NCBI GenBank assembly: GCA_021324185.1
Contig: JAJPJN010000100.1
Location: 1-64,000 of the forward strand
DNA: 64,000 bases
Direction of reading: 5' to 3'
Origin: Terriglobia bacterium
GTDB lineage: Bacteria; Acidobacteriota; Terriglobia; Bryobacterales; Bryobacteraceae
Below the pieces are notes generated by a model. That model saw nothing but the letters and a program-made list of their open reading frames with translations. It made no database searches and was not told the origin of the DNA. A program made the translations under genes and the position numbers. Of this stretch, positions 24,621 through 63,008 are shown in pieces. Within the stretch, counting starts at the first letter, position 1. Each line of letters opens with the position of its first letter.

Positions 24621-25400
24621 ATGAAAGTCGTTATTTTGTGCGGCGGTTTGGGGACGCGCCTGCGCGAGGAGACGGAGTTTCGCCCCAAACCTTTGGTCGA
24701 CATCGGAGGCCGGCCAATACTTTGGCACATCATGAAGACGTATGCGCACTACGGCTTCCGGGAATTCATTCTGTGCCTGGGCTACCGCGGGAACATGATC
24801 AAGGAATACTTCCTGAATTACGAGGCGATGAACAACGACTTTACGATCTGCCTCGGGCGCAAGGCGCACATTCAGTACAACGGCGATCATGAAGAGCAGG
24901 ATTTCTGGGTGACGCTGGCTGAAACGGGGGCGGAATCGATGACAGGCGGGCGCTTAAAGCGAGTGCAGAAGTATCTGATGAATGAAGAGCGCTTTATGCT
25001 CACCTACGGAGATGGCGTCAGTGATGTTGATATCCGCCATCTGCTCGAATTTCACCTGCGGCACGGCAAGATCGCTACGGTGACGACGTTCCGCCCGGTA
25101 TCGCGCTTCGGAATTCTGGATATCAACGAATCTCAACAAGTGAAAAACTTCATCGAGAAACCCAAATCGGATGCCTGGGCGAGCGCGGGTTTTTTCGTAT
25201 TCGAAAAGAAGGTATTCGATTATCTGGGCGGTGACGATTGCGTGCTCGAAAAAGAGCCCCTCGAAAAGCTGGCGGAAGAGGGCCAGTTAATGGCCTACAA
25301 TCACGAGGGATTTTTCTATGCCATGGATACGTACCGTGAGTACCAGGTACTCAACGATCTATGGAAATCGGGTCAGGCGCCTTGGAAGAAGTGGGCATGA
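24621..25400 (+). CDS. rfbF: Glucose-1-phosphate cytidylyltransferase
   Basis: 259 residues. The N-terminal nucleotidyltransferase signature [20 protein letters not shown] (5-24) has the ETEFRPKP wording specific to RfbF/DdhA, which makes CDP-glucose from glucose 1-phosphate and CTP. Also present: [12 protein letters not shown] (about 129-140), the metal-binding Asp region. Length is normal. It opens the run rfbF-rfbG-rfbH, the first three steps to CDP-3,6-dideoxyhexoses, and overlaps rfbG by 4 nt (ATGA). Confidence 0.95.
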
Positions 25401-58054: not shown

Positions 58055-58570
58055 ATGGTATCGACCTTGAGAACACAGCGGCGATCGGGAATTTGGAAGA
58101 GCGTGGCGGCCGGGGCATTTGGAGGACTCGCCGGTGGCATCGCCATGAGCGGTTATCAGGCGCTTGTGAATGCCGCGGCGAAAGCTATTGCAGGCAGGCC
58201 GGCGCTGAATCAGGACGAGGAGGCGACCGCCGGGGCAGCCAAGGCCATCTCGCGGGTTGCCTTCCAGCATGAACTCACGAAGGAAGAAACGAACCGGGCC
58301 GTGCCGGCGCTTCAATGCTCGGTGGGTTTGGCATTCGGCGCGCTCTACGGACTGCTTGCGGACCGCGCGCCACAGTGCACGGCCGGGAAAGGGACGGCCT
58401 ATGGAGCCGCGATCTGGCTGGCCGGCGATGAGTTCGTGGTGCCGGTTTTCGGCCTGGCTGAGGGGCCCGCGCAGGCGAGCGTGCCGGCCCATCTGAACGC
58501 GCTCGGATCACACCTGATTTATGGTCTTGTCACCGACCTGACCCGAAGCTGGGCGCTTAAATCCCTTTAG
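58055..58570 (+). CDS. DUF1440 (YagU-like) membrane protein
   Basis: 171 residues. [20 protein letters not shown] (about 20-39) is a glycine-rich first helix, and [14 protein letters not shown] with [20 protein letters not shown] matches the DUF1440 family, small inner-membrane proteins that in E. coli YagU have been linked to acid tolerance. [20 protein letters not shown] closes the last helix. Divergent from phosphoketolase with almost no spacer; its 3' end overlaps the convergent modA gene by 14 nt. Confidence 0.8.
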
Positions 58571-59300
58571 CTGGTCCGAAGCCAAATTTAGCCAGGATGG
58601 GCTGGGCGGCGGGCGAGAGCAGGAAATCCAGGAACTGCTGAGCGGCTTCCCGGTTACGGGTTCCGGCGATGATCCCGGCTTTTTGGACGATGGGGTCGTG
58701 CCAGGCAGCCGGGATGATCTGGGCCGGTTTGCCCTGAAGCAGCGAGTGTGAGGTAAGGACAGCATCGGCATTGCCGCTTTCGAAAAGCTGAAGCGCTTGG
58801 CGGACGTTTTCGCCGTAGACGACCTTCGGCTGGACGGCTTTCCAAATGCCGGCGTGTTCGAGCGCCTGCCGGGCCGCCAGCCCGTAGGGGGCAAGCTGCG
58901 GATTGGGCAATGCGACGAAACGAACCCAATTTGCAGTTAACTCATTTATATCGTGAGACTTGCCGTCCTTCCAGAGCAGCCCGACCTGGCCCGCAGCATA
59001 GGCCCGTACGGAAAGGGGTTCGATTTTTCGTTTTGCTGCGAGTTCGTCAACGAACTGGGCGTTGGCGGAGAGAAAGACATCATACGGAGCGGCGTGGGCA
59101 ATCTGCTGGGCGAGCGTGGCGCTAGCTCCCGTGACCCAGCGAAGCCGAATCGGGTTCGTTTTTTCAAATGTCTGCTGGAGAAGGGGTTCGGCCGGGCTGA
59201 GGTCGGCGGCGGCGGCAACCATGAGGGCGGTTTGGGCGGTGCAGATGTGAGTGCTCACCGCAAATAAAATTGGCAGAAAACTTGACAATCGTACACTCAT
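58557..59300 (-). CDS. modA: ModA-type molybdate (or tungstate/oxyanion) substrate-binding protein
   Basis: 247 residues from the ATG giving MSVRLSSFLPILFAVSTHIC, a Sec signal. LMVAAAADLSPAEPLLQQTF, then GASATLAQQIAHAAPYDVFL (oxyanion-binding Ser residues) and LFESGNADAVLTSHSLL are ModA signatures. No modB or modC permease or ATPase is adjacent, so the transporter must be elsewhere or the protein acts otherwise. Its start codon lies within the HspR-type operator of dnaK, which could repress both directions. Confidence 0.87.
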   Translation of the reverse strand: MSVRLSSFLPILFAVSTHICTAQTALMVAAAADLSPAEPLLQQTFEKTNPIRLRWVTGASATLAQQIAHAAPYDVFLSANAQFVDELAAKRKIEPLSVRAYAAGQVGLLWKDGKSHDINELTANWVRFVALPNPQLAPYGLAARQALEHAGIWKAVQPKVVYGENVRQALQLFESGNADAVLTSHSLLQGKPAQIIPAAWHDPIVQKAGIIAGTRNREAAQQFLDFLLSPAAQPILAKFGFGPAKGI

Positions 59301-59310
59301 ATCCGATACT
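59281..59310 (+). promoter_or_regulatory. Sigma-70-type promoter with overlapping HAIR-like HspR operator for dnaK
   Basis: TTGACA (59282-59287), a 17-nt spacer and GATACT (59305-59310) form a -35/-10 pair. CTTGACA-N7-ACTCATA (59281-59301) keeps the spacing of the HspR inverted repeat CTTGAGT-N7-ACTCAAG and matches 5 of 7 in each arm. HspR is encoded two genes downstream. Start-site prediction is near 59317, giving a leader of about 50 nt. Confidence 0.65.
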
Positions 59311-59328
59311 GAAAGTGTGCTAAAAATA

Positions 59329-59350
59329 GCCAAGACGCAGGACGCTTGGC
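59329..59350 (+). other. Hairpin directly upstream of the dnaK ribosome-binding site
   Basis: GCCAAG (59329-59334) pairs with CTTGGC (59345-59350) across a 10-nt loop, immediately followed by GGAGGATT, the Shine-Dalgarno of dnaK. Only six base pairs, so possible influence on translation is inference. Confidence 0.35.
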
Positions 59351-59366
59351 GGAGGATTAACTACAC

Positions 59367-61295
59367 ATGAGTAAGATTATCGGAATCGATCTGGGAACTA
59401 CCAACTCCGTTGTTGCGGTGATGGAAGGCGGCCAACCGGCTGTCATTCCCAACCAGGAAGGCGGCCGAACGACGCCGTCGGTTGTTGGGTTTACCAAGAG
59501 CGGAGAGCGGCTGGTCGGGCAGGTTGCGAAGCGCCAGGCTGTGACGAACCCGGAAAACACGGTTTATTCGATTAAGCGGTTCATGGGGCGCCGCTTCAAC
59601 GAAGTCAGCGAAGAGATGAAGCTGGTCCCCTACAAGGTGGTTGCCGGGGAAAACGGCGACGCGCGGGTGGAGATTCAGGGAAAGAAGTATTCGCCGCCTG
59701 AGATTTCGGCAATGATTCTGACGAAGCTGAAGGAAGCCGCGGAAGCCTATTTGGGCGAGAAGGTCACCAAAGCCGTGATTACCGTTCCGGCGTACTTCAA
59801 TGACGCGCAGCGGCAGGCGACCAAAGATGCCGGGCAGATTGCCGGCCTCGAGGTGATGCGCATCATCAACGAGCCCACGGCGGCCGCGCTGGCCTACGGT
59901 CTGGATAAGAAGAAGGATGAGACCATTGCCGTCTACGACTTTGGCGGCGGCACGTTCGATATCTCGATTCTGGAAGTAGGCGATGGCGTGGTCGAGGTGA
60001 AATCGACCAATGGCGACACGCACCTGGGCGGTGACAACATCGACCAGCGGATTATCGACTGGCTGATTCAGGAATTCAAAAAAGATCAGGGCATTGATGT
60101 TTCGAAAGATCAGATGGCTTTGCAGCGGCTGAAAGAAGCGGCTGAGAAAGCGAAGATCGAGCTTTCGACATTGCTCGAGACAGAGATCAATCTGCCGTTC
60201 CTGACGGCGGATGCCACCGGGCCGAAGCACCTGAGCATCAAGCTGACCCGGGCGCGTTTTGAGCAGATGGTGGATGACATTCTGCAGCGCTCGGTCGGGC
60301 CTTGCAAACAGGCATTGCAGGATGCGGGCGTTACGCCGAATGACATCGACGAAGTGGTTCTGGTCGGTGGGTCGACGCGTATTCCGAAGGTGCAGCAGAT
60401 TGTCCGCAGTCTGTTCGGTAAAGAGCCGAACAAGAGCGTGAACCCGGACGAAGTTGTGGCTGTGGGCGCGGCGGTTCAGGGTGGCGTACTCGGCGGCGAA
60501 GTGAAAGACGTGCTGTTGCTGGATGTGACGCCGCTTTCGCTCGGCATTGAGACCCTGGGCGGCGTGTTCACCAAGCTGATTGAGCGCAACACGACCATTC
60601 CGACGCGCAAGAGCGAAGTGTTCTCGACCGCGGCGGACAACCAGACGTCGGTCGAGATTAAGGTGTACCAGGGCGAACGCGCAATGGCTCGGGACAACCG
60701 GCTGCTGGGCGTCTTCCAACTGGTAGGTATCCCGCCGGCTCCGCGCGGCATACCGCAAATCGAAGTGACGTTCGACATCGACGCGAACGGCATCCTCAAT
60801 GTGACCGCGAAGGACCGGGCGACCAACAACGAACAGAAGATCACCATTACCTCTTCTTCGGGCTTAAGCAAGGACGAAGTCGAGAAGATGGCGCGCGATG
60901 CTGAATCGCATTCGGCCGAAGACCGCAAGAAGAAAGAAGAGATCGAAGCCCGCAACCGGGCCGACGCGATGGTCTACAACGTCGAAAAGATGTTGCGCGA
61001 GCATCGTGACAAGATTTCGGAAGCGGACGCGAAGCAGGTTGAAGCGGCGGTTGAGGACGTCAAGAAGGCAATGGCCGAAGGCGGGCTCGACAAGATCAAC
61101 GCGGCAACCGATAAGTTAACGACGGCCAGCCACAAGTTGGCGGAGGCGATGTACAAATCGCAGAGTGCAGCCGGTCCGAACGGCGCCGCCGGTGCGGGAG
61201 CCGCTGCCGACGGTGCGCAGGGCGCGCAGCAACAGCAGCAGCCGAAAGACAACGTTGTGGACGCGGAGTTCGTCGACGTGGAAGACAAGAAGTAA
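59367..61295 (+). CDS. dnaK: Chaperone DnaK (Hsp70)
   Basis: 642 residues. [20 protein letters not shown] (4-23), the phosphate loop [10 protein letters not shown] (191-200) and [13 protein letters not shown] (about 330-343) define the ATPase domain. The substrate-binding domain follows (about 385-505), with a helical lid and a charged tail ending [13 protein letters not shown] Gln-rich linker ([11 protein letters not shown]) precedes the tail. GGAGG lies 11 nt or so before the ATG. First gene of dnaK-dnaJ-hspR; grpE is not here. Confidence 0.98.
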
Positions 61296-61381: not shown

Positions 61382-62569
61382 ATGCCTTCTGCAACCAAAC
61401 AGGACTATTACCAGACACTCGGGGTGAACCGTAACGCGGATACCGAAGAGATTCGGAAGTCCTATCGGAAGCTGGCGCGGAAATATCATCCGGATCTGAA
61501 TCCGGGCGATAAAGCGGCTGAAGAGCGGTTCAAGAAAGTTCAGGAAGCCTACGATGTTTTAAGCGACGACGAGAAGCGGAAGGTCTACGATCAATACGGT
61601 TTTTACTCGCCGAATATTCCGCCGAACGGTGCGCCAGGCGGTGGCCCGGGAGGCGGCCCGAATTTCAGTGGATTTGATTTCAGCGAATTCATGCGCCAGC
61701 AGCAGCGGCAAGGTGGCGGGGGCGCGGCTGAAAATGAAGGATTCCGTTTTCGCGACATTTTCAGCGATCTGTTCGGCGGTAGCCGCGCACGCGCGACAAC
61801 GCCCGAACCGGAGCGCGGCGCCGATCTCGAATACGGGCTGAATGTCGATTTCTGGCAGGCTATTCGCGGGACACAGGTGAAACTGAATATCCGGCGCCAG
61901 GAGACTTGCGAGACGTGTCATGGCACGGGATCGGCCGGCAGTAATGTTGCGGTTTGCCCGGAGTGCGACGGCACGGGAACGGTGACGCAGATGGCCGGCG
62001 CCATGAAATTCAATTTGAGTTGTCCGCGCTGCGGAGGATCGGGACGGCTGAAGAATACCTGCCCGACGTGCCGGGGTGAGGGAACGGTCTCGCGTCCGGA
62101 GACGGTGGAAGTTCGCATCCCCGCGGGGGTTGCTTCGGGGTCACGCTTGCGTGTCGCCGGAAAGGGCAATGCGGGCGTGGCAGGCGGGCCGCCCGGCGAT
62201 CTGTATATTACGGTGCGGGTCGAAGAGCATCCGTTTTTCAAGCGCTCCGGCGACAACATTGAAGTGCAGATCCCGCTCAGCGTCAGTGAGGCGGGGCTGG
62301 GCGCGAAGATCGAGGTGCCCACAATTGACGGGCGCGCGCTGCTAAAAATCCCGCAGGGAACCCAGAATGGGCAGAAGTTCCGGCTGCGCGAAAAAGGCGT
62401 TTTCAACAGCCGGAAGAATACGCGCGGGGACGAAATTGTGGAGGTGGTGCTGCGCGCTCCGGATATCCACGATGAACGGACGCGCGAGCTGTTGCGTGAA
62501 CTGGCGCAGGTCCAAAAGGAAGATGTGCGATCGGAGATTTGGAGCAAGGTGCAGACTCCCGCTGCTTAG
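61382..62569 (+). CDS. dnaJ: Chaperone DnaJ (Hsp40, type I)
   Basis: 395 residues. J domain 8-75 with HPD at 36-38; Gly/Phe-rich linker ([20 protein letters not shown] region, about 88-125); a zinc domain with four CXXCXGXG-like repeats starting [24 protein letters not shown] and CPTCRGEG (about 178-240); and a C-terminal peptide-binding region. It stimulates DnaK ATPase and delivers clients. Start 86 nt after dnaK, beyond the attenuator-like hairpin. hspR follows after 7 nt. Confidence 0.96.
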
Positions 62570-62576
62570 GTGAAGT

Positions 62577-63008
62577 ATGACGAAGAGCAAAAACAAAGCG
62601 GCATACATGATTTCGGCAGTGGCCGAGCAATACTCGATCCATCCGCAGACGCTGCGGCTGTACGAGCGCGAGGGCTTATTGGCGCCGTCGCGCAGCGAAG
62701 GAAATACGCGCCTCTATACGGATGAAGACCTGGAGCGGCTGGAAGTGATTTTGAAGCTCACGCGCGAGTTGGGCGTGAACCTGGCCGGCGTCGAGATCAT
62801 CCTGAACATGCGCGAAAAGATGGAAGCGATGCAGCGGCAGATTCAGGAGTTCATTGGAACCTTGAATCAGGAGCTATCGCAGCGCGCGGCGCAGCGGCCC
62901 GTTGAACAGGGAAATTCTTTGATGCCGGTGATTCAGATCAATTCAGTGACACGGCAGAGCGCGGAAAATCCAAAGCGGAGCGGGGAAGGCAAGCGCCGCG
63001 CGCGATAA
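62577..63008 (+). CDS. hspR: Heat-shock repressor HspR (MerR family)
   Basis: 143 residues. AVAEQYSIHPQTLRLYEREG (13-32) is a MerR-type winged HTH with wording close to HspR of actinobacteria, and LAPSRSEGNTRLYTDEDLER is the wing. An amphipathic dimerisation helix follows at about 80-105. HspR represses dnaK operons by binding HAIR sites with DnaK as co-repressor. A HAIR-like site lies before dnaK in this window, consistent with autoregulation. The C-terminal tail is Arg-rich and non-conserved. Confidence 0.9.
   Translation: MTKSKNKAAYMISAVAEQYSIHPQTLRLYEREGLLAPSRSEGNTRLYTDEDLERLEVILKLTRELGVNLAGVEIILNMREKMEAMQRQIQEFIGTLNQELSQRAAQRPVEQGNSLMPVIQINSVTRQSAENPKRSGEGKRRAR

Follow-up and report, generated by a model that had tools for sequence, protein, structure and literature searches.

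Introduction

In Streptomyces, the repressor HspR acts at HAIR inverted repeats of dnaK, clpB and lon, and DnaK serves as its co-repressor. The HAIR consensus is CTTGAGT-N7-ACTCAAG (PMC6102357); HspR sites described so far frequently occur in several copies or in an extended form (PMC6102357, PMC7464140). HspR regulons in other phyla contain dnaK, clpB and hsp20 or acr2 (PMC2687793). No description of HspR or HAIR in the Acidobacteriota was found in the literature searched.

The locus described here belongs to a 64-kb stretch of DNA (hereafter the window) from the 4.7-Mb genome of a soil Acidobacteriota bacterium, in which the main heat-shock promoter is that of dnaK. It resembles the Streptomyces system in having hspR within the dnaK operon, an inverted repeat with N7 spacing, multiple predicted sites per promoter and clpB in the predicted regulon. 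It differs in that the left arm is merged with TTGACA at dnaK and hsp20, right half-sites are repeated at 24 bp, hsp20 and, in this genome, hrcA are probable targets, and the divergent modA gene starts inside the predicted operator. The HspR regulons of Deinococcus radiodurans and Mycobacterium tuberculosis likewise include dnaK, clpB and a small heat-shock protein gene (as summarised in PMC2687793), whereas the operator variant, the modA overlap and an operon without grpE set the present locus apart. Helicobacter and Campylobacter share with it the presence of both HspR and HrcA, extended or multiple HAIR-like sites and hrcA as a likely HspR target, but here HAIR-like sites (dnaK, hsp20, clpB) and CIRCE-like sites (groES) lie on separate promoters. 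The CIRCE/HrcA system is represented by a CIRCE variant at groES in the genus and by the resemblance of a second dnaK element to one CIRCE half; unlike a CIRCE promoter, the dnaK site lacks a CIRCE with 9-bp spacing and persists where HrcA is apparently absent.

Layout of the dnaK promoter region

The operon consists of dnaK (59367-61295, plus strand; TIGR02350, 1020.8 bits), dnaJ (61382-62569, plus; TIGR02349, 390.3 bits against a cut-off of 377.2) and, as the third gene, the MerR-family repressor gene hspR (62577-63008, plus), which was identified by HspR models, Pfam MerR_1 and synteny in relatives. The dnaK promoter comprises a -35 hexamer TTGACA at 59282-59287 and a -10 hexamer GATACT at 59305-59310, separated by 17 bp and supported by sequence, alignment and a consensus scan; from these hexamers, transcription is predicted to start near 59317. 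The predicted operator, CTTGACA-N7-ACTCATA, occupies 59281-59301 on the plus strand, with its left half-site CTTGACA at 59281-59287 enclosing the -35 hexamer and its right half-site ACTCATA at 59295-59301 lying in the promoter spacer. A second right-type half-site, GCTAA (59319-59323, plus), lies 24 bp downstream of the ACTCA at 59295. On the minus strand, the ATG start codon of modA (59300-59298) falls within the right arm, a position supported by the sequence and by the frames of relatives. A first-pass annotation of the window had claimed the promoter, the HAIR spacing, an hspR gene in the operon and the modA start codon under the same site, and these features were all present as it described them.

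That annotation had also read the site as an HspR operator, a step for which the single sequence is insufficient. Identity to HAIR in the window amounts to 10 of 14 positions, five of seven in each arm, in the same register and with N7 spacing; the right arm reads TCAT where the HAIR core has TCAA. Ten matches of at least 10/14 were observed in the 64 kb, against 14.7 expected under a first-order Markov model, and the resemblance taken alone is thus at chance level. The window's highest-scoring naive match to HAIR (12/14, at 25335-25355) lies inside a coding sequence, is probably due to chance and was rejected. A scan of the whole genome with the exact HAIR consensus, allowing up to three mismatches, returned 69 mostly random matches against 182 in a reversed control and was therefore uninformative.

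Conservation at orthologous dnaK promoters

Orthologous loci were located through DnaK in 60 relatives. Upstream of the true dnaK orthologues a block recurs, CTTGACAa-N6-RCTMAWRTTnnATAMT followed by RCTAA at a fixed distance, and this block sits 58-225 bp from the dnaK start codon. The 34 aligned promoters share an invariant TTGACA and, in the spacer, the invariant bases C, T, (A/C) and A. A separate search of named genomes, which partly coincide with those of the 60 relatives, yielded 80 loci from Bryobacteraceae/Bryobacterales, Terriglobia and other Acidobacteriota; TTGAyA-N7-RCKMA was found upstream of dnaK in 76 of the 80, with motif scores mostly between 20 and 56, compared with a maximum of -2.7 in shuffled upstream regions. 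The second half-site (alignment columns 38-42) is present at 55 of these 80 loci. In several other Acidobacteriota (six loci) the right arm is identical to that of HAIR, ACTCAAG. The site is missing from the dnaK paralogues seen in three genomes. The first-pass annotation had stated beforehand that its reading would fall if orthologous dnaK promoters lacked the motif; the motif proved instead to be conserved across the phylum. Its operator reading thus gains support from orthologue conservation and from the regulon sites described below, while the resemblance in the single sequence could not carry it unaided. The comparison places the predicted operator far above chance. A fortuitous likeness to HAIR, although chance should yield about 15 matches of 10/14 per 64 kb, is scarcely credible given the regulon evidence and the retention of the spacer arm by orthologous promoters.

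A conserved block of this kind might instead reflect the promoter alone, read by the housekeeping sigma-70 or by a heat-shock sigma factor, with no operator present. TTGACA-17-GATAAT is a strong sigma-70 promoter and forms part of the block; two non-HAIR positions of the left arm belong to the -35 hexamer, and conservation of that arm is therefore not independent of promoter function. Sigma-70 does not, however, read promoter spacer bases, and the spacer holds an invariant ACTMA, with a similar half-site again 24 bp downstream. In one genus the presumed -10 hexamer is shifted downstream and the site persists as the variant TTGAyA-N7-ACTMA, and at clpB the motif CTTTAGT-N7-RCTMAGA occurs outside a -35 hexamer. 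For a heat-shock sigma factor, the distance from CTTGACA to CTCAT is ill-suited to a sigma-32 promoter, and none of 20 genomes had an RpoH-type sigma factor above the TIGR02392 cut-off. On this evidence, conservation through promoter function alone is very improbable.

Further predicted sites and the regulator

A sequence-only profile was built from the dnaK promoters alone, so that neither the hsp20 nor the hrcA sites contributed to it. Among the best 150 candidates in the 4.7-Mb genome, the depth to which each genome was scored and at which weaker sites can be missed, the profile marked three places: one at dnaK, one 73 bp upstream of hsp20 and one 61 bp upstream of hrcA. Where relatives have a further profile site, it nearly always precedes hsp20, in several as hsp20-clpB, and one weak match in a single genome falls in an unrelated coding sequence. 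The hrcA site (116491-116515 on contig C84 of this genome) is only partly and poorly kept in the genus. A short HAIR-core profile, in whose training set all three sites were included, returned only dnaK, clpB and hsp20 in this genome.

The clpB promoters of the genus, examined directly, carry a near-canonical HAIR, CTTTAGT-N7-RCTMAGA, with the form CTTTAGT (or GTTGAGT)-N7-RCTMAGATTATTGCA; in one genome the site is a perfect palindrome. Eight of nine genomes of the genus have an additional RCTMA 24 bp downstream at clpB. The same 24-bp repeat of half-sites is found at dnaK (ACTCA at 59295, GCTAA at 59319), which explains the third conserved element of the dnaK promoter and links dnaK to a promoter with near-canonical HAIR; the hsp20 sites are without a second half-site. 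A genome scan for the motif, proposed in the earlier annotation, was therefore positive for hsp20, hrcA and clpB. The core HspR regulon is predicted to comprise, probably, dnaK-dnaJ-hspR, hsp20 and clpB, and possibly hrcA, and through the hrcA site an HspR-to-HrcA cascade is possible.

The HspR of this genome has HspR models as its top NCBIfam matches: NF047377 (E 8e-33, 113.7 bits; a fused-dimer model with a cut-off of 300) and NF047375 (103.1 bits, just under the cut-off of 105, which 17 of the 60 relatives exceed). Pfam MerR_1 was matched with an E value of 5.7e-19. An HspR was detected in 55 of the 60 genomes; wherever the contig reaches that far, hspR lies downstream of dnaJ, about 3.3 kb past the site.

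The site could in principle be read by HrcA or another regulator in place of HspR. The genome does contain hrcA, and the CIRCE variant found at groES promoters of the genus (14 loci), TTGTCACTC-N9-GTGTGCTAA, has a right half similar to the second dnaK element, GTGTGCTAA. The dnaK element was at first taken as a possible CIRCE half, an idea dropped because the 24-bp repeat that dnaK and clpB have in common is the better fit. The element's spacing to the upstream CACTC is 16 rather than 9, and the CIRCE arrangement TTAGCACTC-N9-GAGTGCTAA was not found at dnaK, where a single CIRCE-like half (59315-59323) has its partner at the wrong spacing. Furthermore, HrcA was not detected in any of the 11 genomes searched from a sister family, an apparent loss, although HspR and a strong dnaK site are kept there. 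The groES promoters, for their part, carry the CIRCE variant without a HAIR-like site, and clpB has the near-canonical HAIR. Control of the site by HrcA or another regulator is accordingly judged very improbable. HspR is the best candidate by a wide margin because of its presence and synteny, the absence of HrcA from the sister family, the HAIR-free groES promoters and the lack of an RpoH-type factor above the cut-off in the 20 genomes; HrcA and a heat-shock sigma factor appear, from the genomes compared, to be excluded as general explanations. The pattern suggests a division of labour, with HrcA acting on groES and HspR on the dnaK, hsp20 and clpB set. No groES was found in the assembly of the source genome, and its CIRCE is presumed from the genus.

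The dnaK site is thus very probably a variant HAIR operator through which HspR represses dnaK-dnaJ-hspR. HspR would autoregulate its own operon through an operator whose left arm has merged with a consensus -35 hexamer (HAIR CTTGAGT becoming CTTGACA), whose right arm, ACTMA, sits between the -35 and -10 hexamers, and whose second right-type half-site, 24 bp downstream, falls at about +3. HspR occupying positions from about -36 to -16, and probably as far as about +7, would keep sigma-70 RNA polymerase off the promoter. We infer from the Streptomyces system that DnaK would act as co-repressor, and that upon heat shock unfolded protein would draw DnaK away, HspR would be released and the operon would be induced. 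The predicted switch is of a known kind, newly traced here in the Acidobacteriota as a phylum-wide operator.

The divergent modA gene

The divergent gene modA (58557-59300, minus strand) encodes a molybdate ABC transporter substrate-binding protein of 247 amino acids (TIGR01256, 154.5 bits; cut-off 62.5). The copy linked to dnaK is the single ModA match in the genome; modB and modC lie side by side on another contig with no modA beside them. Within the genus, modA is divergent from dnaK on every contig that covers the region and starts at the ATG of ACTCAT. Elsewhere in the family, loci that carry modA keep its frame open across the operator, with the start at GTG (ACTCAC), at TTG in the -35 hexamer or nearby; in a member of another family of the class the start is again the ATG. 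Where modA is missing, the right arm mostly resembles ACTAAAG. The overlap of modA with the predicted operator is real and conserved in modA-bearing relatives, and provides an example of a probable repressor site in which one strand has taken in a -35 hexamer and the opposite strand a start codon.

A candidate modA promoter, TTGGTA (59404-59399)-17-GATAAT (59381-59376), was found by consensus scan on the minus strand inside dnaK (59376-59404). Because it lies in the early dnaK codons, modA transcription from it would cross the operator, and if this promoter is used, bound HspR would obstruct that transcription. Over the GATAAT on the modA strand, dnaK codons 2-7 (59370-59387) show strongly reduced synonymous variation at 14 loci: mean synonymous diversity in 13 genomes of the genus was 0.16, compared with 0.47 for codons 8-120, and these codons form the least variable of 113 six-codon windows in the first 120 codons. 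No such dip was seen in 13 other family members from other genera. Another cause of the dip could be selection for easy initiation of translation.

Whether HspR also holds modA down, by roadblock or occlusion, so that modA would rise with the chaperones, is about an even question, and such control is suggested by the position of the start codon. The overlap may equally be passive: HspR would control dnaK, and modA would have borrowed an existing operator CAT as its start, with no effect of heat or HspR. The ACTCAT form occurs in hsp20 operators where no divergent gene starts, which places CAT within the normal repertoire of the site, and modA therefore probably made use of a variant that the operator tolerates. 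In many relatives the operator occurs without modA, and the modA promoter is putative. Against a passive overlap stand the modA frames of the family, open through the operator and usually starting at an ATG, GTG or TTG inside it; the genus-restricted minimum of synonymous variation under the promoter-like element; and the need for any modA transcript initiated upstream to cross the operator. Passive overlap is given a shade under an even chance. The fullest form of co-regulation, in which one HspR operator jointly controls the chaperones and molybdate uptake, the dnaK-internal promoter reads modA through the operator, and heat raises ModA together with DnaK, DnaJ and HspR, is a tentative proposal that we regard as somewhat below even. 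If modA were truly co-controlled, molybdenum uptake would be tied to protein-folding stress.

The dnaK leader

The dnaK leader contains a stem, GCCAAG...CTTGGC (59329-59350, plus strand), directly before the Shine-Dalgarno sequence of dnaK (59351-59356, plus). The consensus energy of the hairpin is only -1.7 and shuffled sequences fold about as well; an RNA thermometer is therefore not claimed. The stem has five consensus pairs, three of which show two-sided changes within the genus.
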